From: Allomyces arbusculus
Lineage: Eukaryota; Blastocladiomycota; Blastocladiomycetes; Blastocladiales; Blastocladiaceae
NCBI GenBank assembly: GCA_027604705.1
Contig: JADHYV010000003.1
Coordinates: 372,001-436,000, forward strand
Direction: 5' to 3'
DNA length: 64,000 nt
Numbering within the stretch: position 1 is the stretch's first letter; each line of letters starts with the position of its first letter. The notes under the pieces are model-generated. The model saw only the letters and a program-made list of their open reading frames with translations. It made no database searches and was not told the DNA's origin. The translations under genes were made by a program, and so were the position numbers. Shown in pieces: positions 1,487 through 63,821 of the stretch.

Positions 1487-2391
1487 TTAGTACGGCCGAG
1501 GACGGTCGTACCCACCACTACGGCCGCCGCCATACCCGCCGCGGAACGACCCACCACCGCGCGGCGGCCCGCCGTCGCGCCCACCGCGGAACCCGCCGCC
1601 ACCGCGCCCGCCGCGGAACCCGCCCCGTCCACCGGGTCCACCACGACCACGCCCACCGCCTCCACGCCCACCACGTCCACCACGTCCACCGCGCCCGCCG
1701 CGGCCTGCGCCCCGCTCGGGCTTGATCGGCAACTCGCGCCAGTTACGCGGGGCCCACTTGACCTGCACCGTCCCATTCACGGCCGTGTCAGCGCGCGACC
1801 CTTGAGTGACTCACGACCCGACCTGGTCAAACGTACCAGCAACTCGCGCCCGCCAATCCGCAAGAACCCGCGCGTTTCCTGCGCCTTGGCCAGAATCGCC
1901 TGCACGTCCTCGGGCGAATTGAGAAGAAAGTACCCGACGCCCGTGCACCCGGCGTGGTTGGACAGCACGTTGAAATCGCGGCACCCCCCGTACGGCGCCA
2001 AGACGCGGTCGACGAGGGCCTTGGTCGTATCGGGCGGTAAGCCCACAAGACGCACGGCACTGGGGTCGATGGGTTCAGGGGGACTGAACGGGAACATGGC
2101 CAGCGGCGGCACGGGCGCGTCGTCGTGGCGATCGTCGCGGCAATCGTGCCGGTCGTTGCGGCCGTCACGATGGTCGCGGTGGTCATGGTGCTCCTTGCGC
2201 CCGGGCGCGTCGAGCGGGTCGTCGCCCGGCGAGGGACGGCGGAGGTCGGCGGCGTCCGAGGGCAGCTTATCGAACCCGGTGGCCGCGGGCATGTCGCGCG
2301 GCGCGGCCGGTGCGGACGACGAGGACGCCGACGGCGGCGTGAGGTCGCGGCGCCACTGCAGGCCGGGCTGCGCCGAGTCGCGGTCGGACAT
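1487..2391 (-). CDS. RRM protein with glycine/arginine-rich tail (upstream paralogue of a tandem pair)
   Basis: Two exons, 1837-2391 and 1487-1762, encode 276 residues. The start is the ATG at 2391 (MSDRDSAQPG). A basic/acidic stretch rich in His, Asp and Arg (about residues 68-92) precedes a single RNA-recognition motif (about 112-190: AVRLVGLPPDTT, VGYFLLNSPEDV, GRELLVKWA across the splice). The rest is an RGG-type tail of Gly-Arg repeats ending GYDRPRPY. Intron 1763-1836 (74 nt) starts GTACGT, ends CAG and has CTGAC near its 3' end; splicing restores the RRM's last strand, while reading through stops at once. The next gene downstream on the minus strand is a paralogue with the intron at the same place. 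RGG-RRM proteins usually bind RNA in the nucleus or granules; the exact target cannot be told. Confidence 0.8.
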
Positions 2392-2737
2392 GGTGGTTGG
2401 CGGGGAGTGGATGGTGTGGGCCGGAGCGCCGAGTTGGGAGCCAGCGAAGCGCGTCAGAGACAGGACAGCCGGGCAACAATCAACCAACACGCTCAACTAA
2501 CCTCGATCAAGATGCTGCCAGCACGGAAAAACGATGGCCCCAAACCACAATTAACCATGATGAACGACGCGCAACTCTTCTGAAGGACTTGTCCACCCGC
2601 CTGTGCAAACGGCGACAGCAGCGACCGAGGACGGTGACTCAGACGCCAGGTACATGCCGTCGGCGCCGCGCGTGGCGCGGCGTCCCCAGATGCCACACGA
2701 GCGAACCGAGCGCAAAACGATCAGGCCCGCTGCTGAT
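2392..2737. other. Spacer between tandem RRM genes
   Basis: This is 346 bases upstream of the first RRM gene start and downstream of the second RRM gene's stop. It presumably holds the promoter of the former. No clear TATA box or repeat was seen. Confidence 0.6.
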
Positions 2738-4527
2738 CTAGGAGCCCCACCCGCGCTCGCCGTGATACCCGCCCCTCCCGTTGCCGCGGCCGGCACCATG
2801 GCTGGTCCTCTGGTTGTACGAGCTGGTAGACCCGCCCCACGAGCTCGAGCTCGAAGACCCGCTCCATCCGCTCTCACGGCCCGCACTGCCGCCGCCCCCG
2901 GTCCACCCATGCGACCTGAACCCGCCACCGCGACCTCTGCTCCACCTGCCGCTGCTGCCGCCACTCCCGGGCCATCCATGCGATCTGAACCTGCCACTGC
3001 GACCTCCACTCAACTCGCCGCCGCTGCCGCGGGCGGTGCCGCTCGCGCCCTGCCCGATGTGGCCGCGGCCGCGGCCTCGACCTCGAGAGTTGTCGGCAGA
3101 CAAATACGTGCTGCTTTGGAGCTGGTGGTGCGGGTAATAACCATGTGCCGGTCGCGCGTGTCCATGCGAGTCGTCCGGCGCCGAGGCGGCGGGCCGTGAC
3201 TGGTGGGATGGCGTGGTCATCGCGCCCGACGTCGAGCTCCACGTGGCCGACGCCGTCGCGCACGTGGTCACGGCCGGGGCTGACGCGCTCTCCACCGCGA
3301 CTGCGACCTCTGGCTGCACATCGCCGGTTGGGTGAGCGGGTACTGGTGCAATAGTACTGGAGGTGCCCGACGCGGGCGCCTGCAGTGCGGAACCCGATGG
3401 TGCCGCCGCGGTGAGTTCCCATCGCGACCCGCGCATCAGCAGCTGCTCCGGGTCCACTTCCTCGCGTTTGGTCGTGGCCTCGGGCAGCGGAGGTGGCGGC
3501 TCGACCTTGACCGCGTGGTTGTCCGACAGGGTGAATTTTGCGCCTTGCGACCACGCCGGCTTGTCCCTTGCCCAGGGTGCGGCAGGGGGTGGAGCAGAGC
3601 GGTCGCGTGCGTGACTTGGGGATGCCGGACCGCTGCGAGAATTGCTCGTCCAGGATTGGCGCGGCGGCGGTGGGTAGACCCGCGGATAGATCTGCTTCAG
3701 CGGCGGGTAGACTTGCTTTGGCAGCGACGAGACGGGAGCATGGCTGGCGTCGGTTCTTGGATGCGTGAGGGTTGGCGAGCACGGCGTGGCCTCGTATGTG
3801 CCGACCGCGTGGGATGCGGACCAGCTTGAGCGTGGACTCGGCGGTTGCGAAATGTGCTTCTTGTAGGGCAGTGACAGCGTTTCGTCAAACTCAGCGCTCG
3901 ACTGCCGTTTCCGCGCGCCTGCGGCCTCGTGGTCGTTCTCGTCGTTAATGGCCCCGGACTCTGGCGTCGACTGCAGCGCGGGCCGCGGTGAGGCCGATTC
4001 CGACGCCGGTGCCAACGCCGGATCCGGCACCAGTTGTGCCGCTGGCCATGCTGCTTGTTGCCGTGGCCGCCGCCCGCGGCGCATGTACTGCTCGCGCCAA
4101 TTCGCGGTCGCTTGTTTGACCTAGAGCAACAAGCAAACGACGACGACAACCACCACCCCGCGCGCGCGTTGGTTCCCGTCCGTTTTTCGGCACGCGCTCG
4201 ACTGACTCGAGGTCCCGTGCGTCAACGAACCATCAGGAGCCGGCCAAACGCGGGGATTCCGCCCGGGACCGCGGCCACGTCGAAGACGCGCACAACGTGG
4301 TACGGGTCGGCAAATTGCAGAAAGAGGAGGCCCGTCGCGCCGGTATGGTCGGTCGGCACTTGCACGTCAACGACCTTGACCGTCGGCCCGAGCTGGATCT
4401 TGATCGTTTCAATGTCGCGCATGGTGATGTCGCAGGGTATGCCAATCAGGCAAACGGTCGTTGGATCCACAGGTTGCACGGGCACGACGGGGCGCGTGCG
4501 CACGCTGGGGGGCGTCGTAGCCAGCAT
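2738..4527 (-). CDS. RRM protein with long Ser/Pro/Gly-rich low-complexity tail (second paralogue)
   Basis: Two exons, 4231-4527 and 2738-4120, encode about 559 residues. The ATG at 4527 (MLATTPPSVR) is preferred because it lies just ahead of the RRM; an open frame extends to 4719, so a longer start is possible. The RRM fills residues about 24-105 (TTVCLIGIPCDITM, ATGLLFLQFADP, AFGRLLM then VKQATANWRE). Intron 4121-4230 (110 nt) runs GTTCGT..TAG in phase 0, exactly where the neighbour's intron lies; both second exons begin V-K followed shortly by N-W-R-E. The remainder is disordered: Pro/Ser-rich, a KQVYPPLKQIYPRVYPPP repeat, and a Gly/Arg/Ser tail with two copies of a FRSHGW-containing unit. 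Related to the previous gene by tandem duplication with a divergent tail. Confidence 0.7.
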
Positions 4528-6563: not shown

Positions 6564-9500
6564 ATGACGACGCGACCCACCGCGACCGCGTCCGCACTCG
6601 TCGACCCAATGTCGGCCATGCCCTCGTCGACCTTGGCCGCGTCCACCTTTCTCTCGCCGCACGCCGTGGACGATCACCGTGGCCCTGCCGCAAACGCTCC
6701 AGCAGCAATCATGCCCACGCTGATGCCGACCCACGACGCGCCACCTCCACCATCCGGATCCGCAGCACCAGCGGCGGGCGGGTCAGTCCCGCCGCGCAAG
6801 CGCAAGCGGCTCACCAAAGCGTGCGACGTTTGCCGCCAGCGCAAGGTCAAGTGCGATGGCCGCATTCCGTGTGGCCCGTGCCAACTAATGGCTCCCGAGG
6901 TGTGTGCCTACGCGGCCGTGACACGCAAGCGAGGTCCGTTTGCTGTTCTTGTCGTTCCCTTGGCTCTGGCCGTCGCTGTTGCCGATCCATGGTTGCTTCG
7001 CGCACGCACCCGCGCGCGCTCGGCCCGACTCTGATGTGGTGCTGTTGGGGGAGGGTTATTTGGTCATCCTGCACGGCCGGTGGAACCGGCGTCAGCGTCG
7101 GTCCAATCGGCCGCGGTGTTGGTGGCGAACGACGAGGCGCGTGGGAGAGGCGGGAGCAACTGCGGTGATGGTGTTGTTCTGGTGGTTTTCCAGTCGATAT
7201 TTTCGGATACTGCGGCCAACGCTGAAGCGACCGCTGTTCTTGGCATTGTGCAGTTTCACTAACGCTGGCTCGCTGTTGTTAATTTTCCCGAAATCTCATA
7301 TATTTTCTGGTTACGTACAATATTCTCCTCGTTGCTATCCTTGCTTGACGCGCAAACGACACGAAACGACGCGACGACACGACACGAGCAATTCCTGGTG
7401 GTGTGGATCGTTTTTTGCTCGCAACATCCACGACCAACATCAACTTGGCTATGCACTTGTATGTTGCCGTGGCGAATTTTGGCCGCTTTCATCCCGTCTT
7501 GTGTGTCCTTGCGTACCACGGTGCTCTCGCCTGAAACCGCGTGCGCCGTTCCTGGTGCGGTGCTTGCTCGCGTGCTCATTTAATTTATGGACCGGGATGG
7601 ACCTGTTTGTGGCCGCGGTGACGTGCTGGTGGTGGCTGTTTTGGTTGGGGTCGATGGTTGCCACGTTTTCCCGGGGTCGGTTCTCGAATTTTTCCGGTGA
7701 CTTGTCCTGTTGTTGGGTTTGTGTGCTGCTTTCCTTTTTCTTCTCTCTCTTCCTCCCTCGTCCACCTGCACCATCATCACCTCGCTGTCATGTCCACCCA
7801 TTACCAGGCCCACGCCGCGGCCGCACGCACCAGCACGGCCACGACACCGTGCACTCGCCCGAGCTCGATTACAGCGCCGCCTCGTCGTCGGCCGCCCCGA
7901 GCCGGCGTACCAGTTTTGGAACCTCCGCTGCTGGCGGCGGCGCGCACCCAGCTGGTTACGACGACGGCGACCGCGACGACGATGACGATGCGCCCCTCGC
8001 GCACGACGACCTGCGCAGCCCGCTGCTCGCGCCTGCCGCCGACTCAGCGGTCAACGCGCGCGGGTCTCTGCGCCAATTCGGGTCCGAGCGCACGCGCAGC
8101 GTGAGCAGCGACCTCGGTCTGCTCGCTGCGGCCGCCGAACGGCTTTCAGCGTTTGACACGGTCCACACCACCACGGCCGTAGCTGCCACTGGCGCCGGTA
8201 GCAGGCCGCCGGCGCTCGACCCCGCGCCGCTCCCGCCGGTCCTGCGCCGGTTCGCGCCGTCGCCACCGCGCACGAGCAGTGGGGTGCCGCTGCTGCCGCC
8301 CGTGGCCCCTTTGCCGGCGACCCCAGCCGTACATCATGCCCTGGCGAGCCCCGAGACCCTTTCGCGCGCGACGGATTTGCAACGTGGCAATAACTGGGAT
8401 CAAGCGCGGCCCCCAAGCACCCATTTCCCGTCGCCTGCCGCGCCGGGTGCGCGTGCCGTCGATCCCACGTCACGGCCGGGCGATTTGCCTCTATGGCTCG
8501 CGCAGGCGCTGGTTCACGGGTACCGCAGCGACCTCGGTGCGCTCGCCGAGTCGGAATGGGCGGACTGGGTCGCAATCGAGCAGGACGTGGCTACAGGACG
8601 TGTCACGGCCGTGACGCTCGCTGCGTGCGCGGCTGCAGTCGCTGTCGTCGGACCGCATCTGGCGCCTTCGGTCCCGCCCGCCGCACTCGCGGCATCGGCC
8701 GAATCGTGGGCCGTCCAGGCATCGGCCATGGTGCTGAGCGGCGACGATGACGTTTCGGGGTCCGATGCCGTCATGGCCTTGACCCTGGTCGCGCGCGCTG
8801 CCGTGGCCAAGTTTGACCGAGATCCGATGCCAACAAGAGGTCATCGCGCGTGGATCGCTCTCGGCGCGGCACTCCAAGCGCTCGACCGTGACCTCGAGGA
8901 ATCCGACGCGTCCAGCCGCCATGCCGCATTGCCTGTGTCGGCACCAACCAGCGAGTTGCGGACGCTCGCGCTCGTCGTCGACGTGACAACCATGACTGTC
9001 TCGATCGCGGCGTGCATGGGTCGAGATCCGGCAGCGCTAATCCCGGCCCGGTGCCTCGACTATCTCAGCAACACGCGCGCCGCATCCGCGTCTGCGGCTG
9101 ACGCTGCTGCATGGCACGCGGCACGGCTCCTGCGTGTCGCCGTCGATGTCCTGCACCTGCACAATCGCCCTCGCGCCGCGACCGTCGCCACCGACCCGCT
9201 CGACCCGCAACTCGTGCACCATCTGCACCGCACGCTGGCCGACCTGCGCGACCAGTGGCCCGCCGGCTGGGCCCGTCCCGCCGTATCGTCGCGCGTGCTC
9301 GCGCTGCATGCCACGTACCTCGCCGCGGTCATGTGGCTGCACCGCAGCGCGACCGTCGCGCTCGACGCCATGGCCAACGACCGGCTTGTCCCACCTGCCC
9401 AGGAGGCCGCACGCGCCGCGCACCATCGGATCTGTGTCGAGGCTGCCGACTCGGTCGTGCATATCGCGCAGTGGCTCCCACACCATCCGCGCGCGCTGCG

Positions 9501-11658: not shown

Positions 11659-11694
11659 CGGTGCTGCTTCCATCGCCGATGGATCGCAATTTGA

Positions 11695-24700: not shown

Positions 24701-27479
24701 CTGAACCATTTCGACGTGGATCGCAGACGGGGCGCCCGTTGCCGCCTTGTACAGCGGCTGGTCCACGTACCGAATCTTGTATTCGGCCTGGTCCTCGGGG
24801 CACTTGTAGTACTCGACGGCCCACTGTTTCGTATACTCGGCGGGCGCGCCAAGCTGCAGGAGCTGCGCGAGCAACTCGACGCTCTTCGACTCGATCGCGG
24901 CGGCGACCAGGTCGGAAATGGTCTTAAACGTGGTCGCCGTCGGGTCCGAGTCGAGCAAGTACTTGACAATGTCCATGCGCTTGGCCTGCAGCGCGAGCTT
25001 GAGCACAGACGTGCTGTTGCTGTCGCAGTCCGACGCGAGCGCACCAGAATCAATCAGCAGCTCCACCATGGGCAAGTGCTTGTCCTCTTCGGGACCGAGC
25101 CACGCGAGCGCGAGCGCTGGCGCCGCGTACTTGCGCCATGAACCCTCGGCCTTGTAGGCCTTTTTCGGGCTCGCGCCGGCGTCCTTGATCAGCCAGCGCG
25201 CGACGTCGAGGTGGCCGTAGAGAATTGCGTAGTGCAGCGGCGAGAAACCCGAGTCCCAATCGATATGATCGACGCGGTGCACGTCAGGCTCCTCAGCGTC
25301 TTCCTCGGCTGATGAGGCCTCGGCCATTTCCGCGTCGTCGTCGTCGCCCTTGGCACTGCCGCCGTCATTGCTGCCGTCGCCACTGCCCTCGCTCCCGGCC
25401 GAGACCATTTCAAAGTCGCCGTCCGAGTCGGGCGACGCGGCCTTCTTGCCGCGCTTCTTTTCGGGCGTCTGCTGCCCGGACGCCGGTGCGTCCTCGCCCT
25501 TGGCCTTAAGCGCGTCGAGGTTCTCCTTGGCCTTGGCCCAGAGCACCTGAGCGATCTCGAGGAACCCGTACTCGCACGCGAGGTGCAGCGCGAGCCGCCC
25601 ATCGGGCATGGGCGACGAGACGCGCGCACCGTACTCAAGCAGGACCTTGACCATGTCCAAGCGACGGAACACGGTCGCGACGTGCAACACCGACCGCCCG
25701 ACCCAGTCACGCGCCTCGATGGCCATGAGCCAGGCCTTGCGGCGCTCTTCCTCGGTGGGCGCGGCCAGAGCCTTGGCACGGGCTGTATCGAGCAAGCTGC
25801 GCACGCGGGCAATATCGCCGTGCGCGACCGCGTAGACGAGCGCCGACCGGTCCTCGGTAATGTAGGCGTCCGCTGCCCAATCGTCGTCGGTGATCGGGTG
25901 GAACGACCCGATTGTCTGGCGGCCCGGGTCATCGACCATGAATGTCAGCGGCCCATGCACGAAATTTTCGACATCTTCCTTATCCTCGGGCGTGACGATC
26001 GGCGGGCACGACCCACAGCAGTCGCTCATGACCTCTTCCATGGTCCCGAAAAACACGGGGTGCTGGTGCACCGAGACGCCGCGCTTCGACATGAACCACT
26101 CGTTGTTGAGCGTCTTGTCCTTTTTGGCTAGCAGCTTGACAATCTTGCTCGCAGTGTACTCGGGCCCGTACGGCAAGAACACCGATGAGTAATCCGACGA
26201 CTCGAACGCATCGTTGCGTGCCTTCAAGTCGCGCCGACGCCGCCACGCCTGCGCCTCGTACCGACCCGCGTTCTTGTGCGCCGGGCGCTGCTTGCGCTCG
26301 CGCTGCGCCTCCTTGTACTGCAGCCGCGTCTCTTGGTCGCCGAGCGCCTCGAAGACGAGAAGGCGAGCCAGACCCTGAACCTTGTCGAACCCGCGCTCGT
26401 AGATCTGCGGGTCGACCAGGTCGCGGTGCAGGTTCGGGACCTTGACCGAGTACCCGCGCTGCGAGTACTTGGCGAGCCGCGCCTCGTAGGTTGGCGAGCG
26501 ACGCGACACGTCGATCGAGTTGATGTGCGTGATGAGCGCGAGATGCGCGCGCGGAGTTGCGAGTACGTCGATTCCGTTGTACCCGACGGCGCAGGCGTCG
26601 ACGTCAAAGCCCTGGATGGTGGAGAGGGAGGCTCAGCAAGTGCTCGTACAGCTTGCAGTGGTAAGCAAGGAGCCGCGTACCATCAGCGTCTCGGCCGGGC
26701 TCTTGTACAAGCGCAAAATGATTTGAATGTGGCGGTACGGGTACTGCGAAACGATCGTGCACGCGTGCGTCGTCCTGAATGGGGTAGGCAGAGGGAAAGC
26801 AGAGTCAGATTATCGAATTCCGGCAAAGGAAGGAACTCGAATTTGCGTACCGAATCACGACTACCTCAAACGGCACCGAGTCCATGATGGCCTGGTAGAC
26901 CTCCTCCATCTTAGCGCGCGCCGCCTCCTCGTCGAGCCCGTGAATGAACAGGTCGATATCGCCAGAGCCGTACTTTGTCAAGAAGAAATCGCGGCGCTCG
27001 CCATATGTCGTCTCGGGCGGCAAGTGCGAGAGGCATGCCTGCACGGCGCCGCCCGCGACAAACACATTATCCCAATTCAGGCAATCGAGCGCACCCGCCG
27101 TGAACAGCTTCCAGTTCAACATAAACTCGGACTTGTCGGCCACGACCTTGGTCCCTTCCTTGGGGCGGTCGGCCGAGGCCATGACGAGCGGCGCGTCCAC
27201 GTCTTCTTGCCACTGGCGCGGCACACGCAGCGCGTCCTTGGGCAGCGCGTGCACGGGCACGAGCAACGCGTGAGGGTCCGAGATGGCGGGCGAGTCGCGG
27301 CACTGCGCAAAGCACCGGCGCAGGTCGTGCTCGCGCCGCGCATAGTCGATGCGGAAGGCCTCGCGCGCAGCGTACGACTCTCTGGCCGCCGCGAGAAGGG
27401 CTTGGCCGTACTGTGCGGCATCGAGACGCGGCACGCGCGCCGTCGGCAGCGGGCCTGTGGTCACGGCAGCATCAGACAT
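21761..27479 (-). CDS. Giant ankyrin-repeat protein with N-terminal nucleotidyltransferase-like domain
   Basis: Exons 26851-27479, 26681-26774 and 21761-26611 encode 1,857 residues from the ATG at 27479. The head looks like a minimal nucleotidyltransferase fold: VAGGAVQACL (GG at 143-144), then GSGDIDLFIHG (Asp174, Asp176), and FDVDACAVGY at 243-252 as a candidate third acidic strand. A conserved block VSRRSPTYEARLAKYSQRGY follows. From about residue 440 onward come many ankyrin units (GRSVLHVATVFRRLDMVKVL, FSPLHYAILYGHLDVARWL, ETPLHIVCRQPQAARRCL, HTPLAVATLAGEYKTV) broken by acidic low-complexity inserts. Both introns (76 and 69 nt, GTACGC..CAG) restore the continuous block SPAETLMGFDVDACAVGY. 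Ankyrin repeats bind proteins; whether the head is catalytic is unknown. No signal peptide or membrane segment was seen. Confidence 0.85.
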
Positions 27480-28039: not shown

Positions 28040-30334
28040 TTACAGCCCGAGCGACGCCAACACCTCGTCCGACGCCTGCTGCGGGCGCGTGAGCTTGAGC
28101 AGCGGCTCAAATGACTCGGCCTCGTTAATCTGCAACTGCGCGTTCTCGTTGCCCGCCCACGCGCGGCGTGCAATGCCATTGTTCACGTCCCAGAAGAGCA
28201 TCCGGCGCGCGCGCACGGCCGCGGCCTCGGTACCGTCGAGCAGCAGCAGGAACCCGCCGTTCATGACTTCGCCCCACCCGACGCCGCCGCCATTGTGCAG
28301 CGAGACCGAGGTCGCGCCGCGGAACGCGTCGCCAACAAAGTTGTGCACGGCCATATCGGCGGTGAACTTGGACCCGTCGGTCACGTTCGAAGTTTCGCGG
28401 AACGGCGAGTCGGTGCCCGAAACGTCGTGGTGGTCGCGCGACAGCATCACGGGGCCCTTCAACCGGCCATCGGCGATCGCCTTGTTGAGGGCGAGCGCAA
28501 CGCGCATGCGGCCCTCGGCGTTCACGTACAGGATACGCGCCTGCGAACCGACGACCAGCTTGTGCTCGCCGCAGTGCGTGATCCAGTGGTGGTTGTCTGG
28601 GAATTGCGAGATGGCGGGGTCAGTCTCACGGCGGAGAAGTGGATGGCGAGCGAGAGGATGTTAACGTACCGCTGTACTGTTCAATCTGACGCTTGCCGAG
28701 TTCGTTGGCGCGTGCCTTCGACTCCTTGGACAGGTCGGTCAAGACCTGCGCCGCAATCTCGTCGGTCGTCTGCAGGTCGCTTGCGAGACCACTCGTGCAC
28801 ACCCCTGGGATCGACAGGCGGCATCATCAGTCTCTCATAAAGCCGGGACCCAACTGGTAAGGCAAGGACAACGTACAACGGAAGGGACCAAACCCAAGAC
28901 TGAAGATATCGCCCATGATCGCCTGCACGTACGACGGGTACTTGAACTCGCCGTCCTCGCGCAAGATATCGGCGCCCGCGCGGCTCGACTCGAGCAGCAT
29001 CGCGTTCCCGTAATCAAAGTAGGCCATCCCGCGCGCCGTGAGCTGGTTGATAGCGGCAACTTGGCGACGCAGCGACTCCTGTACGAGCGCCTTGAACTTG
29101 TCGGGGTTCTCGACCATCATGACCTGCGCCTCCTCAAACGAAATTTGCGCCGGGTAGTACCCGCCCTGGAACGGGTTGTGCAGCGACGTCTGGTCACTGC
29201 CGAGTTCCGGGATCAGGTCGGCGTCCTTGACTGAGTCCTTGGCGAGCCGCTCCCAGACGTCCACGACGTTGCCGTGGTACCCAATCGAGACGGGCACCTT
29301 CTCGGCACGCGCACGCTTGATCCGCGCAATCAACGCGTCGAGCCCCGACACCTTCTCTGTGACCCACCCTTGCTCGAACCGCTTGTCGAGCGCGGCGCGG
29401 TCGACCTCGGCAATGACGGCGATCATGCCGCAAATGAACCCGGCCTTGGGCTGCGCGCCCGACATGCCGCCGAGACCCGCCGAGACGAACAGCTTGCCGC
29501 GCAGGTCCGACGTGCCAACGTACTTGCGGCCAGCGTTGAGCAGCGTGATGGTCGTGCCGTGCACGATCCCCTGCGGCCCAATGTAGCAGTAAGAACCCGC
29601 CGTCATCTGGCCGTACTGCGAGACGCCCATCGCGTAGAGTTTGTCGTAATCGGCGCGCGACGAGTAGTTCGGGATGACCATGCCGTTGGTCACGACGACG
29701 CGCGGCGCGTCCTTGTGCGACGGGAACAGACCCATCGGATGGCCCGAGTACATGATGAGCGTCTGCTCGTCGGTCATTTCCGATAGGTACTTCATGACGA
29801 GGTGGTACTGCGCCCAGTTGGAGAAGACCGACCCGTTGCCGCCGTACGTGATGAGCTCGTGAGGGAACTGCGCGACGCGGCGGTCCAAGTTGTTCATGAT
29901 CATGAGCTGGATACCCGCGGCCTGGATCGACTTGGACGGGTAGTCGGCGATCGGGTAGGCCTGCATCTCGTAGCTAACGAGCAAAAAATTGGTCGGTCAG
30001 TTGGTCATCAAGCTTCTCCACCGGTTTGCAATCGCCGAAAACGAGACGAGACGTACTTGGTCGGGCGAAAGCGGTTCATGTAGATGTGGCCAAACACGTC
30101 GAGCTCCTTCAAGAACTCCTTGGCGAGCTTGGCGTGATCCTTGGGGTCAAAGTAGCGAAGCGCATTGCGGATCGCCTGCTTCCTCTCGGCGGCGTTGAGG
30201 TTGTGCACGCGCTTGGGTGCGTGCGGGACTGACGGGTCGCGAGCAAAGACTTCCTCCTCGGTGCGCGCCCAGAATTCGGGCTGGTCAAGGCCGAGCGTCA
30301 GGCACTTGAGCGTTGTTGCGTGCGAGTTGGCCAT
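28040..30334 (-). CDS. UROC1: Urocanate hydratase (urocanase)
   Basis: This enzyme adds water to urocanate to give imidazolone propionate, the second step of histidine breakdown, using bound NAD+; it acts in the cytosol. Exons 30057-30334, 28877-29973, 28670-28804 and 28040-28596 encode 688 residues (human enzyme about 676). Landmarks are TYGGNGSVFSNWAQYH, YSGHPMGLFPSHKDAPR, the dinucleotide-binding GLGGMSGAQPKAG, GFGPFRWVCTSG restored across the third exon junction, LSRDHHDVSGTDSPFRETSN and SLHNGGGVGWGEV. All three introns are 72-83 nt and begin GTACGT; each splice restores the family sequence in phase. The C-terminal half matches the eukaryotic UROC1 type. A TATATAAG box sits 63 nt before the start. 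No other histidine-degradation gene lies in the window. Confidence 0.95.
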
Positions 30335-34483: not shown

Positions 34484-36029
34484 ATGATTCGCACGTCTAT
34501 CCGCCAGTTCTCGACCTCGACGGCGACCCTCAAGGTCCGGCACGCGCCCCGATGCCGATGCGACGGGCATCTCCAGGCATCCTGCTCAATCCATGGCTAT
34601 TCCGCCCATATTCTGGCCATCTTCGACTGATAGCCGTCAATGTGCTGCTCGCGACCTGTGCGCTGCTTCGCGACCTGTAGAACAAGGTCGTGATTGTGGG
34701 TGCCGCGCGCACGCCCGTCGCGCTCTTTAACGGCTCGCTCGCCAAGCTGACGGCGCCGCAACTCGGTGCTGTCGCCATCAAGGGCGCGATTGAGAAGGCG
34801 GGTATCAAGCCCGCCGATGTCGAAGAGGTTTATATGGGCAACGTTGTCTCGGCCGGTGCCGGTCAGGCGCCCGCGCGCCAGGCGACGCTGTTTGCGGGTT
34901 GCCCCGAGTCGACCGAGGCCACGACCATCAACAAGGTCTGCGCGTCGGGCATGAAGGGTACGGATTGTCGTTGCGGTGGTGGTGGTGGTGGTAGTGGTGG
35001 TGGTGATGGTGGTGGCTGTTGGTTGCTGTGGTCGGGTGATGCTCATTCCGGTTCATTTTCGCTCCGTCTAGCGATCGCCCTGGCCGCGCAGAGCATTGCT
35101 CTTGGCGACCGCGACGTGATGGTCGCTGGTGGCATGGAGAGCATGTCGAACGTGCCTTTCTACTTCCCGCGCAACGCCAAGTACGGCCACCAGACGGCCA
35201 AGGATGGCATCATCAACGACGGTCTGTGGGACGTCTACAATCAGGTGCACATGGGCAACTGCGCCGAGAACACGGCCAAGGAGCACGGGATCACGCGCGA
35301 GCAAATGGACGCGCACGCTGTCGAGTCGTACAAGCGGTCGGCTGCCGCCTGGGCCAACGGTGTCTTTGCCAACGAGGTCGTGCCCGTGACGGTCGGCGAG
35401 GGCAAGCGCGCCGTCGTTGTCGCCGAGGACGAAGAGTACAAGAACGTCAAGTTTGACAAGATCCCGACGCTGCGCCCGGCGTTTGCCAAGGACGGGTCGG
35501 TCACGGCCGCCAACGCGTCGACGCTCAACGACGGCGCCTCGGCTGTCGTGCTTATGAGTGAGGCCAAGGCCAAGGAGCTCGGTGTGACGCCGCTCGCCGA
35601 GATCATTGCCACGGGCGATGCCGCGACCAAGCCCATCGACTTCCCGGTTGCTCCCGCCCTTGCCGTGCCCGTCGCCCTCAAGAAGGCCGGTCTCACGACC
35701 AAGGACATTAGCCTGTGGGAGTTCAACGAGGCCTTCTCGGTTGTTGCGCTCGCCAACGAGAAGATCCTGGGCCTCAACCCCGAGCAGATCAACATTGCCG
35801 GTGGTGCCGTTTCGCTCGGCCACCCGATCGGCTCGTCGGGCGCGCGTATCGTCGTGACGCTCACTAACCTGCTCAAGTCGGGCCAGTATGGCTGCGCCGC
35901 GATCTGGTACGCTTGTTTGTGCCATTACCCCAGCTGCGCTCACGACGAGACGACTGACCGTAACGTTTCCCACCCATTCGCAGCAACGGCGGTGGTGCCG
36001 CGTCGGCCATTGTCATCCGCAAGCTGTAG
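34484..36029 (+). CDS. ACAT1: Mitochondrial acetyl-CoA C-acetyltransferase (acetoacetyl-CoA thiolase)
   Basis: This thiolase interconverts two acetyl-CoA and acetoacetyl-CoA, serving ketone and isoleucine metabolism in mitochondria. Exons 34484-34534, 34681-34957, 35072-35906 and 35984-36029 encode 402 residues. Exon 1 is only a 17-residue leader, [17 protein letters not shown], which has the Arg/Ser/Thr make-up of a mitochondrial presequence. The body shows the nucleophile segment [17 protein letters not shown] (acyl-enzyme Cys), [47 protein letters not shown] (catalytic His) and the second Cys in [15 protein letters not shown], formed across the last splice. Intron 2 holds a GGT-repeat microsatellite. 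Intron donors are GTCCGG, GTACGG and GTACGC. A cytosolic ERG10-type role cannot be excluded if exon 1 is alternative, but the leader favours mitochondria. Confidence 0.94.
34975..35015 (+). repeat. GGT trinucleotide microsatellite in thiolase intron 2
   Basis: About 41 nt of nearly pure GGT units with two interruptions lie inside the 114-nt intron 34958-35071. Confidence 0.9.
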
Positions 36030-42079: not shown

Positions 42080-44191
42080 TTACTGGGTCCGTGCCTTCTT
42101 GGCCATCTTGGCCCCCGTCGCCGACGCGGCCGGTGCCGCCTTGTCGCTCTTGGCTGCCGAGATCATAGCCTTCTTGCGCTTGAGGTTCTTGATTTCGTCC
42201 TGCTTCTTCTGCTCGGTGCGTTTGATCGCCTCAAACAGCTTTTTGTCCTTGTTCGACATCATGAGCTTGGCCATGGCTAACCGGTCGGCCTCCTCCTGCG
42301 CGGCCTTGGCCTTGGCTTTTTGCGCAGCAGTCGGCTTCTTGATGGCAGGTGCCGCGGCGGGCTTCTTGGCCTTCTTGGGCTCCTCGACCTCCATCGCGTC
42401 CTCGTCGTCGTCCGAGTCGGCGTCGTCCTCATCTTCGTCCTCCTCGTCTTCCTCTTCCTCGTCCGAGTCAGCGAGCGCCGCGTCCTCCTCGACCATTTCG
42501 TGCGCCTCGACCTCCTCGTCGTCCGACAACGCCGGGTTGTACTCGAGCGGCGAAGTCTCGTCGACAAACGGCGACAAATGTGGCGGCAGCGAATCACCCG
42601 GCGCGTATCCCGTCCCGTGCTCCGTACCCGCGACCAGCAGCAACTTGCCGGCGTTCACGCAATCAAACACCCACTGCGGCTGGACAAACACGCGGCGCGG
42701 CAAATTCGCCACACTCTCCGGCAAACTCGGGCGATCGACCAAGTGGTGCGTAATGCGCGGATCGTCCGCGGCCACGGGGGACCCGGCACCAAGGACCGCG
42801 TCCCAGCCGACGGTGGCGCCAAACGCGCGCAGGACAAACTCGACGGCCGACCGCGGGACTTCGCGCGAAATGTAGAAGACGAGGCTCGAGAAAAGCGACT
42901 GCTTCGAGGACAGTGTGCGCGAGAGCGCCGAGTAGGTCACGAGCGGCTTCGAGTGGATGTCGCCCTCCTCGCCGGCAGCGGCCCCGTCTGCGTCCATGGC
43001 CTCGTCAAAGTCCTCGGCGACGGGTTCGTCAGCGTCGTCGGGGGTGGCTTCGGCCATGGTCACGTCGTCGCCATCGGTGTCCTTGATCGACGCGATTTTC
43101 GACTTGAGCGACTTGAGCCGCTTCTTGTCCTCGGCCGACAGCTTGGGCGCCGAAGCCGCGGCAGCCTGTGCCGCTGATGGTGCGGCGTCCTTGGCGTCGC
43201 CGGCGCTCTCGAGCGTCAGCGCATCGAGCCCTGCGGCACCGGCATCCTTGGCAGCATCGAGCGCCGGTGGGTACTTAAGGTTGAGTTCCGAGTAGAGCCG
43301 GAACATGACGAACCCGAGCAGCGTGTCGTAGAGCTGCAGGAACGTGTGCATGACCTTGAAGTCCACGTCGGTCGGGACGGTCTGCGAGAATTGGTGCGGC
43401 ACAATCCAGGTAATGGGTTGGCCCTTGATCTCCACCTGGTAGTAGATGCCCTTGATGGAGATGAAGGTCTTGCGCAGGCACCGCGCCTGGATCACGTAGT
43501 GCAAAAACTCGGCCGACTTGCGCTGGCAGCTCTCAATCAGATCCTTTTTCAGGACGTTGGTCGAGGGCATGGTCGCGAAGAGGAAGATCATGGAGAGGGC
43601 GTCGTCGAGGTCGCGCAACGCGTCGGTGAAGGTCGGGTACCTGTGGCGGGTGAAAATGGATGAGGCTGGTTCCGTTCAGCGGCAAGGAAGAACGGCCAAC
43701 GTACCGTTCGCGAATCAAATGGTCAAACGTAAAGACTGGCTTGTTCTCCTCGAGCGCCTCGGCCGTCGACCACTGGCGTTTGGTCAAGAGGCGTGCCATC
43801 TTGCGCGCAAAAATCTTCCATTCGCGGAACTTGGCGAGCAGCGGCTCGTGCAGCAAGTACTGGATGTCCTTGCGGTAGTACCATGTCGTTGGCGCCGTCG
43901 ACCCCTTGTTAACCTTCTTTTTGTTGGCGGGCTCGCGCGGGTAGATACCCTTGAGAATGCAGAGACGGCTACGAGAACGGCACGCCAAGTGTCAGCGATG
44001 TTTGCTCGCGATTGGATGGTACAGCCACCAGAGGGAGCCCTCCACCCGATGGATGCGGTCGTGCGGTCGTATGCGGAGCAGAATACCGACCGGAAGTCCT
44101 TGAGCGAGATTTGCAGCTTCTTGAGCGCCTGGCGGCGACTAATGTAGTTCTTGACGGCGCCCGTCGTGCCCTTCTTCTTGATCTTGCCCAT
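42080..44191 (-). CDS. NOP7: Pescadillo / NOP7 ribosome biogenesis factor
   Basis: This nucleolar protein works in the PeBoW (Nop7-Erb1-Ytm1) complex for 27S pre-rRNA processing and 60S assembly. Exons 44091-44191, 43705-43968 and 42080-43640 encode 641 residues. The N-terminal pescadillo domain is strongly conserved: [38 protein letters not shown] across the first splice, [40 protein letters not shown] across the second, and [25 protein letters not shown] domain follows (about residues 375-470, ending [19 protein letters not shown] with its conserved Trp). A long Asp/Glu tract and a Lys/Ala-rich helical tail finish the protein. Introns: GTCGGT..TAG (122 nt) and GTACGT..CAG (64 nt). It is divergent from the carrier-like gene, 379 nt away. 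Confidence 0.95.
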
Positions 44192-49000: not shown

Positions 49001-52000
49001 GCGCGGCGGGGGCTTAGCCGCCCCGGCCTTGCGCAGATCCTCCATGTCGAACAATTCCGTGAGCTTAGTCTGGTGCCGCTCGTTGTTGACGCGCTGCCGC
49101 AACCAGTCCGGGTGCTTTACGCGCGGGATCGGGTTGGGCACCTTTTGCATGGCGGCGGGGATCGTGATGAGCTTTTGCAAGACGAACCCGAACCGTTCCT
49201 TGTAGTAGTCCCAGTCGATCAGGTCGCGAATGTCCGGGTCCTGCACGTTCGGGTCCTTGAGCCACTTTCGCAGGAAATGGCGCCGGATCGCCGGGTCCGT
49301 GTGCAAGATGGCGACGGGGATCGCGCGTTCGGCGACGGGTGCGTCGACGGGCTTCTTGGCAATCAAAAAGTGGCACGCGAGCTTGTCCTTGACCATGTCG
49401 TTGCCCAAGAACATGGCGAGCCGCTTGGCCGTGGTGATGGCCGTCGATTTTTGGCCCTCGTACTCGGACAGCGATTTCGACATGTTCTTGTTCTCGGAAA
49501 TCAGGTCGATCAGCTCCGAGTCGGGCATGTTGGCGCCGCGCGTGTCCATGATGTCGAGCCACTGGTTGGCGACGCGCGCGACGGCGGCATAACACTCTTC
49601 GAGTGTCGAGCCTTCGAGAAACACGGAAAAGATCTGCTGCTGGAAGATCTTGATGAGCTTGAGCTCGCCGCGCCGTTTGACTTCAAATCCCTTGAGTTCG
49701 GCCAGCGATCCATTGTCGTTGAAGACGGCATACCGCTTCTTGAGCAGCTTATCGGCCTCAGTCGACGCTGGCAAAATCATGGCGCGGTACGGGCCATCGA
49801 CCTCAAACAGGATCGAATTTTCCGAGCGAATCTCCCACTCGTCGCTGGCCCTGTCCTTGCGCGACTGGTACTGGTGGTTTGTGAACTTGCCGTAAACGAG
49901 ATGGTTGAGCATCGTGCACGGGTACGAAATCACGCACTTCTTGCCCGTCTTGGTCGTGCAAACAAAATTCTCCGGGAACGATTTGGGCAAAATGCACCAG
50001 ATCCCGTCGGTATCGAGCTCGAGCGGGCGGCCCACTTGCTCAATTAATTCGCGCGCGAGCTGAATGATTTGCGCGCCCGTGTAGCACACGATCCCGCCCA
50101 TTTCCATCGAGTACCAGCGACTGCCCTTGCGCATGACGTACCCGTAGAACGAGTTCAAAATACACTTGTGCGCGAGCTGCAGCGAGTCCATGACGACAAC
50201 CATTTTCTTGCCCTCGTTGATGCCCGCCGTATCGCTCGCCGCCTGCGCCTTCTCGAGGTTCTTTTTCCAGACCTTGAGCAAGCCCTTGTACTCGTACCGC
50301 CGGTCGCGGAATTGCCGCACCGTATCAATATAGAACGGGTTCTCGCGCTGGCACACGGTCGACGTGCGCTGTACGACTTCGTGGTCGTGCAACTTCTTGT
50401 AGACTTTGCGCGAGTAGTCGGCGAGCGTCTTGGTGATCTTGGCCTGCCGGTCGGTTTTCGACAGTTGCCGGAACACTGGGTCCTTTGCCAACTGCCCGAG
50501 AATCATATTGTAGTCGGCGTGTGTTGCCGGAAAGTACTCGCCGCGCCATGACCACTCGAGCGGCCGCTTGCACTGGTTCTCAGGTGCATTGAAGTCGCAC
50601 GTTGCGCACGTGGCCTCCGAGACCATGGCGTCCGGCTGCAACCGGTTGGTCAGGATAATGTTCGGGTACATGGCGGCCACGTCGAGATGGTAGATGAGCG
50701 GCGTTTCGAGCCGGTTCGGCTGGTCGCGCAGCCCCTGGAGGGCGGCAATAATCTGGTCGCGCTTCTCGTCGAGGTCAATCACGTCGTCGGGCGAGACCTT
50801 GTGCTCAACCTCGAGCGTGAACCGCAGTGCGCGGTCGACGTCGTTTATCAGCTTGTCGATCATGCTCGGCACGATCTTGAACGTGGTCGCGATATCCGAC
50901 CGAAAAACGCCGGCCTCGAGGGCCTCGACGTGCCCGCCAACATACGTCTCGGCCGTGAGCAGGTGGCCCTGGTAAAACTTGCCCACTTCGTCGACGTGCT
51001 TGTTGGGCATGAGCACGTTGGCTTTGAACGCCTGCACCATGAGCAGCGACTCACAGAGCGTGCCGGACCCCTTGCGCAGCACTTCGTCCGGGTTCATGGG
51101 GATAATGTTGCACAGCGAAAAGACGAAGGGGTGCACATATTTCATGTAGAGGTAGTAGGTCGCGACCGCGTCCGAGACCGAGTACTGCGCGAGAATCTGC
51201 GGCTCCTGCTGCGCGTAGGTCAGCATCACCTCCGGGTCGAGCTCCATTGGGTTGTACCCGAGCTTGGCCGTCGTCACGGCCTTGAGTCCGTGGCTGCCCG
51301 CGGGCAGGTACGAGTCGCGCTTGACCCACCGGAAACAGTCCGAGTGGTGCGCGTAGTAGCTCTTGTACTCGTCGTTGTCGTCGCGGAACACGCCAATCTC
51401 CTCGTACATGTCGAGCCCATGCGCCTTGGCGCGCGCCTCGACAAACGGCCAGTCGAAGAAATCGCCGTTGTAGGTGACAAAGACTTGCGGCTGCACGTCA
51501 ACGACGTGCTCGAAAAACCGCCGAATCAGCTGCTCTTCGTTGACCTCGTTGAAAATGACAAACGGGCCGGGGAACTCGGGTTTCGGGTTGTACTCGAAGT
51601 CGGCAATGTCCTCGGAGACGATTTCGCGGTTGGTGATCAAGTATCCTTGGCCGTCGATCATGTAGGAAATCATCATGATCTGGTCGTGCGACGCGTCCGG
51701 GAACTTGAGCGGCAGTTTGGTCGTTTCAATATCAAACGCGAGCACGACCGGGTCGGCGGGCAGCAGCTTGTCCTCTTGCCGTGTCACAGAGACGACGCCA
51801 TTTTCGGGCACGACATTGTACCAGACGCCGACGCGGTAATCTACAACGAAAAGAGCGTGGTTAGTCGGCTTGAACGCCTCACCATGCCGAGACATGCGAC
51901 GGCAGGGCAAACGCGCACCTCTGTCCATGGCGACGCGCAAGTAATACGGCACGTCGTACTCGCGAATGTCGAGAATCAGCGTCATGGGGTCGTGCGCGTA

Positions 52001-52974
52001 GGTGCGCTTATCGGCCTGCTTGGTGGCCACGCCGACTTGCACGTTCATCGACTCGTCAAAGACAAGGTTTTCGCTGGTGCTGGCCTTGGCACGGCGCACG
52101 GCGGCGAGAACGTCCTTGCGCACGCGCAGCAGGTCCTGCACGTTGCGGAAGAGCAGCTTGACGACGCGGCGCATGATGCCAAGCAGGTGGTTGGGCTGGA
52201 CGCGAAGGAGAATTGTGTGAGGTGTGCGAATGAGAAATCACCGCGCGATGTGATATCCTCGCGTACCTGGTCGAGATCCTCTTTGTCCACCATTTCAATC
52301 TTCTCGATGGTGCTCTCGTACTTTTTGCGCAGGAATTCCTCGACCTCGGGCTCGGATCCCGGCTAAACAGAAAAACGACCGCACACACGGCAAGCGCGCA
52401 AAAAAAAGATGAATGGCCAGTATATTTGATCGAATAAGTGCGAGCTGCAAGTACCTTGCACATGATGTAAAAGTAAGGGCTGTACTTGATGGTGCTCTTG
52501 AACGTGGACCCGTCGTCTTGAATAAAATAGTAGTCGCACGCTGACCGGCCTCCCGGCCAGTCGTCGTCGCGCAGGAGTGTCTAGACCGTTGGTTGCGCGC
52601 ACGGCTCAGTGTCAGCGGGCGCACAAAAATCGCGCTGTATCGCCCCACCCAGCAGTGTCGCGTACCGGATGCATGTTCACCATCCACCCGGACCGCGGTG
52701 GTCCCGCATCAAACCTCGAGAATCCCATCTTGACATCGAGTTCGTCACGCTGCGCGACCCTTTGAAACTGCTGCTCGGCGGCCGAGGCGACGGCGAGCCC
52801 GTTCTCGTCGAGTTCGGGTGCGCTTATAGCGCCCTTAAAGTTGTTGCCTCCAGCGGCACGGCGGGACGAAGGGAACCGCGACCGGCCCTGGCCGCCGCCG
52901 CCGCCGCCAGACTTGCCGCCAGACTTACCGCCGTTCGGAACGAGGCCGAAAGTGCCCTTGCCGCGCGACGCCAT
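46034..52974 (-). CDS. POL2: DNA polymerase epsilon catalytic subunit
   Basis: This is the leading-strand replicase. Exons 52666-52974, 52455-52580, 52267-52362, 51919-52195 and 46034-51840 encode 2,204 residues (yeast 2,222). A Gly/Lys/Arg-rich head (MASRGKGTFGLVPNGG) precedes MGFSRFDAGPPRSGWMVNMHP. Exonuclease motifs are intact: FDIETTKLPLKFPD (Exo I, about residue 306), VTYNGDFFDWPF (Exo II), YSVSDAVATYYLY (Exo III). Polymerase motifs: LDVAAMYPNIILTNRLQP (A), CILNSFYGYVMRKGSRW (B), LELDTDGIWCILPKSF (C). The inactive second polymerase half follows, and the end has two zinc modules, CMACNATADLDF..CARC and CSKCHLVKRENLNAHCGC. The last intron (78 nt, GTGCGC..TAG) is a multiple of three and lacks a stop, so its splicing rests on the restored DYRVGVWYN join. 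It is divergent from RPD3 (463 nt) and convergent with the carrier gene (about 100 nt). Confidence 0.97.
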
Positions 52975-53437: not shown

Positions 53438-55456
53438 ATGGCCAACCGAACGGCCCAGTCCGAGCTGACCCTCGCGCAGGGCACCGCGCGCAAGACCAAA
53501 GTCGCCTATTACTTTGATCGTATGATGCTTCAAAACAACACCGGTCAGTCCCGCGTCTTTCAGGCACCATCAATTTCTGACCGTACGCGCCATTCGCCCG
53601 TGCAATTCCAGCCAATATTGCAACGTTCCACTATGCCTCGAGTATGTTCGTGCCCGGCGAGAGTCGCTGACGTTGGCTCGCCAAGACGACGACGCTGACG
53701 GTTTTTTGGGCGGATTGATGCGTGCCCAGATCACCCCATGAAGCCGTTCCGCATCCGCATGACCGACGCGCTCGTCAAGAACTATGGCCTCTACAAGAAA
53801 ATGAACGTCTTTGTACGCATGCTCGCGCTTCTCGACAGCAACAACGACTCGGCGCTCTGAATCCATGGCCTGACACCCCGCACGTTTTGGCGAAATTAGC
53901 GACCAACAGCAGCCACGTTTGACCAAATGACCAAGTTCCACACCGACGACTACCTCAATTTCCTCAAGCGCGTCTCGCCTGAAATCTACTCGACCGGCGT
54001 GGAGCGGCTCGTTGATCGCAAATGTTCTCGTTGCCCTCCCTAACACTCGCTTGTCACGACGTGCATCCTGACCACCTCCCTGCTGCTCCCATCCAGTCAA
54101 CTTCGGCGACGACTGCCCGCCATTCGACGGCATCTACGACTTTTCCTCCTTGTCCGCCGGTGGGTCGATCCAGGGTGCCGAGCGACTCGCGTCAGGCGAG
54201 TGCGACATTGCCGTGAATTGGGGTGGGGGGCTGCACCACGCGAAAAAGACCGAGGCCTCGGGCTTTTGCTACGTGAACGACATTGTTCTCGGTATTCTGG
54301 AGCTCCTGAAGTGCGTTTGGTGCCGACTTGAATTTGGCACTCGTGACCGAACACTGACTATGCAACGCGCTGCTAGATCCTACGAGCGTGTGCTCTACGT
54401 CGACGTCGACGTGCACCACGGCGACGGTGTCGAAGAGGCCTTCTACACGACCGACCGGGTCATGACCGTCTCGTTCCACTTGTTTGGGCACGGGTTTTTC
54501 CCGGGCACGGGGCACGTCTTGGTACGCGCTCATGTGCCGTCCTTGGCGCTCCGCTGCGCGCTTCATCGCACTCACCCTGTCGCGCATCTCTCTCAGGACG
54601 TTGGCGTTGGCAAGGGCAAGTACTATGCGGTCAACGTGCCGCTGCAATACGGCATCGACGACGAAACATACCACCAAGTGTTTCGCCCAATCATGAAGCG
54701 CGTCATGGAATGGTACCGCCCCTCGGCCGTCGTCCTGCAACTCGGCGCCGACTCGCTCGCGGGCGACCGACTCGGCATGTTCAACCTGTCGATGCGCGGC
54801 CACGGCAAGTGCGTCGAGTACATGAAATCGTTTGGCGTGCCAATGCTCATGGTGGGCGGCGGCGGGTACACGATTCGCAATGTCGCGCGCACCTGGACCT
54901 ACGAGACGGCACGCGCCGTGGGCGTCGACTTGCCGGTCCACCTGCCGTACAACGAGTTTCTCGAGTACTATGGGCCCGAGTACCTGCTCGATGTGCCGAT
55001 GTCGAATATCCCGAATCATAACACGCAGGACCACTTGGAAAAGCTGGTGGCCGCGATCACGGAGCATTTGCGCAATTTGCCGTTTGCGCCGAGCGTGCAG
55101 ACGCAGGAAGTGCCCGTTGACGAGCCGGTCGAGGCGGACGAGGATTTGGAGGACCCGGATGAGCGGTTACCGCGTACGTTTTGTCACCGCGTTCTTGGTC
55201 GCGGGCCCCGCGCAGATGCTGACTTGGTGATGCCCGCATTCTAGAATCATACCGCGACGGCCACATCCAGCGCGATGACGAGTACAGCGACTCCGAGGAC
55301 GAGGGTGACAGGAGGGACGAGCACGACTACGGCCCGTCGTCGTCGAACGGCGCCGCATCCAGGGGACGCAGTTCGCGGCCAGCGGCCAGTGCACGCGGAG
55401 CCCGTGGGGTGAACGGCTCGTCACACGCCGACGCCGACGATCCGATGGAGGGCTGA
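53438..55456 (+). CDS. RPD3: Class I histone deacetylase, RPD3 type
   Basis: This zinc hydrolase removes acetyl groups from histone lysines in Sin3/Rpd3-type co-repressors. Eight exons (53438-53519, 53612-53641, 53730-53812, 53900-54023, 54097-54310, 54377-54521, 54597-55173, 55245-55456) encode 488 residues. Exon 2 is only 30 nt; with it the protein reads [20 protein letters not shown], matching the family, and without it that block is lost. Catalytic parts are intact: [20 protein letters not shown] (His153, His154), [15 protein letters not shown] (zinc Asp189, His191), [14 protein letters not shown] (zinc Asp) and [20 protein letters not shown] (transition-state Tyr). The end is acidic then Ser/Arg/Gly-rich. 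[12 protein letters not shown] and ARTWTYET favour fungal RPD3 over HOS2. The usual GQGHPMKP is SNHPMKP here. Convergent with the RAD60-like gene. Confidence 0.93.
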
Positions 55457-55549: not shown

Positions 55550-55583
55550 TACACGAAACCCAAACCAAACCCACACCCACCCG

Positions 55584-62210: not shown

Positions 62211-63043
62211 GGTCGAGATGCTCTTGGCAACAGGGACAGCGGGAGCGGACAGTCGTGGTGCAGTTGGTACAGTTGGTCCAAATGGGGTCGGCGTCGACGG
62301 TGCAGCGGGGGGTCGCAGCGCGAGCGCGGGCACAGGAGAGGGAGAGCGCGTCGAGAGCGAGGTCCAAGATGCGGTGGACGGGAAGAGAGGGGGGGCGCGC
62401 GGGGTGTGCAGCGATATTTATTGGCGGGGCGAGCCGGTCGTGGGTCGGGGTGGGGAGCGGTTGGTCGTGCGCAATCGTCGCACTCGCTTGCGCGCAGAAC
62501 CGGTCAGGGAAGAACACAGGCACGGGGACAAGGCCGGCCTGGTCCGGGCGAGGTTCTTTCGTGGAAGGCCGGCGCGTGGTGGGAAGGATGCCAGGCGGCG
62601 CGATGGGCGCGCTGGTGACGCTGGCTGTTGCCTGGCGGCCGGTCAAGAACGACTGTGCTGGCCCGGCGCGCGGTGGTTGCTGCTGGCCGCGCGGTGCGCC
62701 TCTCTTCATGGCGGCGCGCTGATCAGCGTGATGTCAGTGAAAATCAGGCTGCTGTCACAGGCATTCGAGCGCTGCTGCTGCACGGCGTGACCGTCCCTGC
62801 CTCTCTCCACCGCAGCAGCATCTCGCCACCTCGCCGCCCCTCGGCCCCCCTGCCTCCAACGACGCGACGGCGAGCGTTGGCGCAGTAGACAGCGACAGCG
62901 ACGACGGCGGTTACCCGCCCACCTCAACTCGCTGCAAGCCCGCAGTCGATCCCGGCACGACGAGCGCCACCTGCGAACGCGACGAGAAGCGGCTCACATC
63001 CTCGACAACCGACCAAATCCTCGCCGGCCACCATCACGTCCAA
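62211..63043. other. Divergent region between elongase and terminal membrane-protein gene
   Basis: 833 nt. AATAAATA-like bases on the minus strand near 62412-62421, about 200 nt before the elongase start, may act as a TATA element. The frame of the right-hand gene is open from 62741 without an ATG and has Ser/Asp-rich coding-like composition near 62880-63040, hinting at an unrecognised 5' exon. Confidence 0.5.
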
Positions 63044-63821
63044 ATGGAAAAGCCTGGCGCACCATCTCGCGCCGACCTGCTCGATGGCTTCCTGCCGCCG
63101 TACCTGTCGGCACCGCCAATGAAGCCGACACCCGTCCCAGCCGCGGCCCCGCTCGCACAGCCTCCACTCGGTCGTCCTGCCCCAGCGGGTCCCGCACCAG
63201 CTGCGACGCGGCCCAAATTGCCGATTCCGACCGTGCGGTCGCTCGTCTCCAAGTGTGTGCCTGAAGTGGGCCACGCTGCGATGCTGCGCGCATGCCTCAT
63301 CGCAGTGAGCGGGGCCGAGCTGTTCAACACCATCGCCTTCTCGGTCATTTGGTTCGTGCGCGTGCCCGGATTTGGCCTGACGTTTCTTTCGCTGTTGCGG
63401 AGCATTGTCCACCTGTGCACGATTGCCGTGGCTTACGTGACGTGGTTCAAGGCGGTGAGTTCGAGTGCAACTTTCTGATTGCTTGATGGTGTGGATACTT
63501 TCTCATCATCGTCTTGTTTCTGTCAAACAGGGCACACGCGTCGCAGCAACCGGTGGACCGCGAGGTGCGTCGTCGTTGCGGTTCGACAGCCACATCACGC
63601 TGCACGGCCTCTCGCTGCACTCGCTCTACTGCCTCTACATGGCCGCAGGCCTCCCGCAGACGGGGTCAGCCGGTGCTGTCTGGTGGCAGGCACACTTTGC
63701 CATGGCACGGCCCGGCACTTCACTCGTGTGCCTCGCATGCGCGCTCGTCTGGCTTGCGGCTGCAGCGTTCACGGGCATCGTCTACTTTCGGCTGCGGCGT
63801 TCGCCGGGTGGCGGGAGCTAG
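63044..63821 (+). CDS. Small multi-span membrane protein of unknown function
   Basis: Exons 63044-63454 and 63531-63821 encode 233 residues if the ATG at 63044 (MEKPGAPSRADLLDGF) is the start. A Pro/Ala-rich hydrophilic head (about 1-60) precedes four likely membrane segments: LFNTIAFSVIWFVRVPGFGL, SIVHLCTIAVAYVTWF, SLYCLYMAAG and SLVCLACALVWLAAAAFTGI. Intron 63455-63530 (76 nt) begins with a canonical GTGAGT and ends CAG; the join KAGTRVAAT is in phase. The frame remains open upstream to 62741, so a 5' exon with an acidic, Ser-rich head may exist. I do not recognise the family. Confidence 0.6.

Follow-up and report, generated by a model that had tools for sequence, protein, structure and literature searches.

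The introns modelled in a 64-kb window of a fungal genome (contig C3:372001-436000, 61% GC, from an assembly of 25.9 Mb in 197 contigs; "the window" below means this whole stretch of 64,000 nucleotides) mostly begin with a donor site that carries C at intron position +4 (+4C), a place taken by A or T in most eukaryotes, and so do the introns modelled on four other contigs. We lean, with somewhat more belief than doubt, towards a genome-wide shift of the major (U2-type) donor consensus to G|GTRCGY, in which +4 would be read otherwise than by Watson-Crick pairing and C would be maintained there by selection. The constraint on +4C comes close to that on the G at +5 in the sequence read.

Genes were predicted in a sample of 284 kb, comprising the window, the adjoining 20 kb and four 50-kb blocks on contigs C1, C2, C4 and C5 (GC content 61-64% in the stretches read). 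The gene finder, which was unsupervised, combined a 3-periodic coding model with GT...AG introns 36-300 nt long and built up its profiles of donors and acceptors from a flat start. The flat start yielded 116 genes with 159 introns (length quartiles 71-82 nt), in which +4 was A in 5, C in 126, G in 8 and T in 20, +5 was G in 127, and +3 was A in 85 and G in 39; the commonest donors were GTACGT, GTGCGT and GTACGC, and the fuller form of the consensus is the one given above. A preliminary description of the window had counted C at +4 in 36 of 44 introns, 20 of which began with GTACG, and the window models bear this bias out (31 introns; C28 T2 A1 at +4; GTACG in 16). Its claim that the bias is genomic and not local also holds, +4C being the majority on each of the five contigs (13/22, 19/24, 40/45, 32/39 and 22/29; 126/159 altogether).

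The position was recovered as C when it was withheld from scoring (25/31 introns in the window; A5 C112 G13 T23 in the 284 kb, n=153), when +3 to +6 were all left unscored (97/144), and when GTAAGT served as the starting profile (127/158). In the 87 introns common to four runs (flat start, +4 masked, all donor positions masked, GTAAGT start) +4 was C66 T12 G5 A4, and the information was 0.84 bit at +4, 0.98 at +5, 0.41 at +6 and 0.27 at +3. Relaxed donor reading, which the preliminary description had offered as one explanation, fits poorly, because +4 is the second most constrained of the variable intron positions. At exonic GT decoys of the same genes +4 was C in 34%, G in 38%, T in 16% and A in 12% (G 3585, C 3287), and the background of C was 29% at intronic GT decoys and 31% after all GT; measured against the exonic decoy rate, 112/153 has a binomial p of 3e-22. 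The ratio of C to G was 126:8 at +4 versus 3005:2565 inside introns, and composition alone fails because G is so rare at this position (8/159). Across the whole genome, the pattern AGGTANGT...CTGAC...AGG, which holds +3, +5 and +6 fixed, gave 54 rows with 51 distinct donors after three repeat-donor rows were dropped (C32 T12 A6 G1, tallied from the printed strings); its reversed control gave 26 rows, so up to half of these matches may be due to chance. A second whole-genome pattern with +3 and +4 free gave 22 rows versus 7 for the reversed form, and among the 10 listed there were 9 with C and 1 with G.

Six genes (four from the window, two from contig C4) were picked as conserved and intron-bearing, and their spliced flat-start proteins were aligned to solved structures (the first 467 residues of POL2 and the first 600 of urocanase). 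A junction was taken as confirmed where the alignment runs through it and the closest gap is at least 7 residues off, as judged by eye. Confirmation was obtained for 14 of the 23 junctions (urocanase 2/3, POL2 4/4, thiolase 2/3, RPD3 2/4, GDI 3/3, SAC1 1/6), all 14 with +4C (GTACG 9, GTGCG 3, GTACT 1, GTCCG 1). The other nine are not covered by the alignment, adjoin a gap or fall in sequence that is poorly conserved; the result was not made by dropping them, because all 23 modelled donors have +4C. One of the SAC1 models, the intron at residue 352, is wrong and omits 8 residues present in the yeast protein. Elsewhere, the Mn-SOD gene has the donors GTACGG and GTACGA, and the METTL16 gene has GTACGT and GTACTT, besides a dubious intron model of 250 nt with GTTGTC (this gene model is without the true 5' end).

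The preliminary description had also pointed to CTGAC-like boxes before the acceptor, and these are indeed common: a CTRAY box was found in 94 of the 159 introns (none in the other 65, within the stretch scanned), its third base being G in 89 and A in 5, and 68 of the 94 boxes read CTGAC. The box was preceded by A in 27 of the 94. Four U2 matches were obtained (L007, L008, L009 from 1501 on the minus strand, and L010 at 1501-1697 on the plus strand); L007 and L008 read GUGUAGUUUCUG and L009 reads GUGUAGUUUUUG, against GUGUAGUAUCUG in the Rfam consensus, the difference falling at the margin of the sequence that recognizes the branch site, and L010 (GUAUAGCUUCUG) is more diverged. This U2 difference was considered as a compensation and rejected; we treat it as drift because the branch position that it faces shows no preference. 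Two U5 genes were matched as well.

Candidates for U1 and U6 were scored with covariance models (the best 41 of 387 U1 and the best 47 of 790 U6 candidates). One U1 locus was found, with the 5' end AUACUUACCUG and an Sm-like site AAUUUUUGG, and in it the base facing +4 is unchanged; a DNA search of the genome found no second U1 copy. The two U6 loci found (83.7 and 78.9 bits) each have AUACAGAGAAG, and in both the ACAGAGA box is present with its central A unchanged. Genome matches to ATACNTACCTG numbered 13, seven of which read ATACGTACCTG, with G as the fifth base and so able to pair with +4C. An Sm-like site was found in none of these seven within the stretch checked (one has GATCA), and the complementary strand of each reads as a strong donor, CAG|GTACGTAT; some of the ATACNTACCTG matches are chance, because a reversed control had 16.

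Both of the factors to which the choice between +4A and +4U has been tied in yeasts are encoded in the genome. A METTL16 domain is present with its NPPF motif (in MCNPPFYSS), and SNRNP27K is present with YRQYMNRKGGFNRP, the spliced domain matching profile positions 1 to 55 of 56. The Met of YRQYMNRKGG, which we take to be Met141 of the human protein, is kept. Duplexes of unmodified RNA were computed with ViennaRNA, the register being left free, and the 159 native donors gave mean energies of -4.4 kcal/mol with U1 and -1.7 kcal/mol with U6. When +4 of the same donors was set to A, G, U or C, the means were -7.1, -6.9, -4.5 and -4.2 kcal/mol with U1, and -1.3, -1.5, -3.4 and -1.6 kcal/mol with U6. 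With U1, C at +4 thus gives the weakest duplexes of the four bases, and with U6 it is poor, like A and G. In the standard register C has a partner in neither RNA, so it would have to be favoured by something other than Watson-Crick pairing.

That the bias was produced by the gene models, as an artefact of modelling where GC content is high, is the most improbable of the alternatives, and we have rejected it. Some models are certainly wrong (SAC1 at residue 352) and one intron each in METTL16 and SNRNP27K is dubious, but the flat, +4-masked and GTAAGT starts agree and the protein alignments contradict such an artefact in 14 of 14 confirmed junctions. A compensating U1 or U6 variant, which the preliminary description had predicted, is very unlikely in our view: the single U1 obtained by DNA search has a canonical 5' end (AUACUUACCUG), both U6 copies found are canonical (AUACAGAGAAG), and the ATACGTACCTG copies have no Sm-like site in the stretch checked, while each also reads as a strong donor on its other strand. 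A divergent extra gene could be missed, or a variant could lie in sequence that was not assembled, given a U1 match of 41.8 of 69.5 bits, an assembly in 197 contigs and scoring of the best candidates. From the interpretation given in that description, the genomic bias and the CTGAC-like boxes stand, and the compensating snRNA change is not supported by the U1 and U6 genes found.

Two further explanations leave the snRNAs as they are. Under a drift of composition, +4 would have been relaxed in a GC-rich genome and A replaced by G or C with no reader of C, and to this we give a minor though real chance. The GC content of the stretches read is in its favour, as are two algal genomes: in Micromonas +4C introns form the canonical class and the low-GC regions hold a different one (PMC3879977), and in Ostreococcus the +4C introns lie outside chromosome 2 (PMC2483917). 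Drift would, however, bring G as often as C, as the exonic decoys do, when the donors have C126 and G8; G also pairs better than C with U1 (-6.9 vs -4.2 kcal/mol), and +4 holds 0.84 bit. GC drift may explain the loss of A but not the rarity of G at +4. A shifted pairing with U6, in which C at +4 is paired to the G that follows the central A of ACAGAGA, this A is bulged, and G at +5 and U at +6 pair as usual, would account for the choice of C over G, and ViennaRNA yields the bulged form for the GUGCGU donor; the fold is not chosen for GUACGU, the commonest donor, its energies are tiny (-1.2 kcal/mol), and the association of +4C with +6T is not significant in any of the three intron sets compared (p 0.70, 0.86, 0.08). 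We regard it as unlikely.

Several observations weigh against a shifted consensus with its own reading of +4. With all donor positions but GT unscored, +4C drops to 77/135 in the 284 kb (16/30 in the window, with boundaries blurred in that run). In the 87 shared introns it occurs mostly together with G at +5 (59/70), and in just 7 of 17 cases where +5 is not G; part of this may stem from a CpG effect or from poor modelling of weak sites. The U1 score of 41.8 bits is below the Rfam cut-off of 69.5, and the intron in the conserved domain of SNRNP27K has the donor GTGTGT, with T at +4 (a second intron model of this gene, 224 nt with GTGCGT, is dubious and past the likely stop). All junctions are models predicted from the DNA, and the contact that would read +4 is hypothetical. 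In three intron sets +4C associates with a purine at +3 and with G at +5, from which we draw no conclusion because wrong models would give the same association.

On the favoured reading of a shifted consensus, the C at +4 would face position 5 of U1 and, in U6, the central A of the ACAGA box without a Watson-Crick pair, and U1 and U6 would bind the donor through +1 to +3, +5 and +6. C might be preferred through a non-standard contact with that central, probably methylated, A, or through the Prp8/SNRNP27K surroundings during the transfer from U1 to U6. The shift probably started under GC-biased mutation and would then have been fixed by selection for C over G. More tentatively, and with doubt prevailing, we suggest that +4C is actively selected, via an undescribed contact, by a spliceosome whose U1, U6, METTL16 and SNRNP27K are all ordinary; fungi and algae with GC-rich genomes may each have evolved this on their own. 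The contact could be one between C and a modified central A of the U6 ACAGA box, for example inosine or an m6A in a protonated wobble pair; alternatively, m6A may flip out and leave C to pair with the G that follows, or C may sit in a pocket of a protein. In the current account, which comes from yeasts and mutants, +4 is tied to U6 methylation and SNRNP27K, with A where both are present and U without them. A genome that has METTL16, SNRNP27K and ordinary U1 and U6 and yet uses +4C is therefore an exception able to test pairing, modification and protein reading against one another. In practice, a gene finder insisting on GTAAGT would misplace many introns in this genome.

The window introns named below have coordinates taken from the gene models. 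In urocanase (minus strand) all three donors are GTACGT: intron 1 (29974..30056) has its junction at residue 93 within an ungapped alignment to the PDB structure, intron 2 (28805..28876) has an ungapped junction within GFGPFRWVCTS, and intron 3 (28597..28669), a few residues from a 7-residue gap, was not counted as confirmed. The four POL2 introns (minus strand) all have ungapped junctions: intron 1 (52581..52665, GTACGC), intron 2 (52363..52454, GTACTT), intron 3 (52196..52266, GTACGC) and intron 4 (51841..51918, GTGCGC). In the acetyl-CoA acetyltransferase (thiolase) gene (plus strand), intron 1 (34535..34680, GTCCGG) is in an N-terminal leader beside a gap and is not confirmed, and introns 2 (34958..35071, GTACGG) and 3 (35907..35983, GTACGC) have ungapped junctions. 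RPD3/HDAC (plus strand) has an intron with an ungapped junction (54311..54376, GTGCGT), one with its closest gap about 9 residues off (54522..54596, GTACGC), and two uncertain models, one beside a 2-residue gap (54024..54096, GTTCTC) and one in a poorly conserved region (55174..55244, GTACGT). A modelled intron of pescadillo (NOP7; 43641..43704, minus strand, GTACGT) belongs to a gene with a Pfam Pescadillo_N match. Further models are an intron at 1763..1836 (minus strand, GTACGT), two introns of an ankyrin-repeat protein (26775..26850 and 26612..26680, minus strand, both GTACGC), and the sole +4A donor among the 31 window introns (63455..63530, plus strand, GTGAGT). This ankyrin-repeat protein is long (window 21761-27479; 1857 residues as modelled).

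The host is probably a blastocladiomycete. A rhodopsin-guanylyl cyclase fusion, which we take to be a mark of Blastocladiomycota, is encoded in one open frame (L043:76-1974), with matches to rhodopsins of solved structure and to the cyclase domain from a rhodopsin/guanylyl cyclase fusion protein. The guanylate cyclase domain gave 24 match rows in the genome, exon by exon (e.g., L037-L044) and thus from fewer genes; this number seems high for a fungus. Zn_clus gave 12 matches genome-wide, one of them at window 6816-6914, which suggests a fungus with few such genes. Blastocladiella emersonii presumably belongs to the same phylum. Its introns are mostly 60-79 nt long with GT/AG ends, according to passages of PMC2773782, and so resemble in length those modelled here, although the text of that paper gives a CTAAC-like branch site where the boxes here are CTGAC-like. 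The donor logo from 105 of its introns is in print (Figure 2 of PMC2773782), and it may show a +4C bias that passed without remark.

In fungi at large, a +4C consensus was not found in the open-licence literature, searched mostly at listing level and with the B. emersonii logo not compared. As minor donors, sites with +4C do occur in other fungi: for the ascomycete Hypoxylon, the stwintron search, as given in passages of PMC9024468, allows 24 donor hexamers, six with +4C (including GTACGT and GTGCGT), although that list is led by GTAAGT, GTATGT and GTGAGT and not, as here, by GTACGT, GTGCGT and GTACGC. In Saccharomycotina, passages of the study by Parker and others (PMC10581693) report that +4A accompanies METTL16 and SNRNP27K while +4U is found where these have been lost, that U1 and U6 are unchanged across the two states, and that variation between A/U and G/C is far less. 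The same donor position thus varies there, as here, with no change of U1 or U6; the yeast switch is from A to U with loss of METTL16 or SNRNP27K, whereas here the base is C with both present, and neither A nor U has the majority (A5 and T20 of 159). A passage search of that paper and of the same authors' review (PMC11732430) did not find cytosine or cytidine.

The closest likeness is with picoplanktonic algae. The genomes of Ostreococcus and Micromonas are GC-rich. In Ostreococcus lucimarinus, outside chromosome 2, Irimia and Roy described a GTGCGTG donor, which they called atypical, and an ACTGAC branch site, and suggested that snRNA changes are worth exploring (passages of PMC2483917); the +4C donor consensus and the CTGAC box are common to that genome and the present one. 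O. lucimarinus differs in being a green alga, in having G at +3 and a strict donor of 4.8 bits, and in the A that precedes CTGAC in most of its introns, versus 27/94 here (parts of PMC2483917). The canonical introns of Micromonas have an AG|GTGCGT donor and an NCTGAC branch motif, as here, and the differences again are a green algal host and G at +3, with introner-element introns also in that genome (sections of PMC3879977). The donor is thus fairly called non-canonical as a fungal consensus, as the preliminary description had it, but as a consensus +4C is already known from these two algae. Since +4C occurs with CTGAC in two unrelated lineages, the pair in this fungus and in the picoalgae suggests convergence, and the combination of donor and branch site might be a repeatable outcome of evolution.

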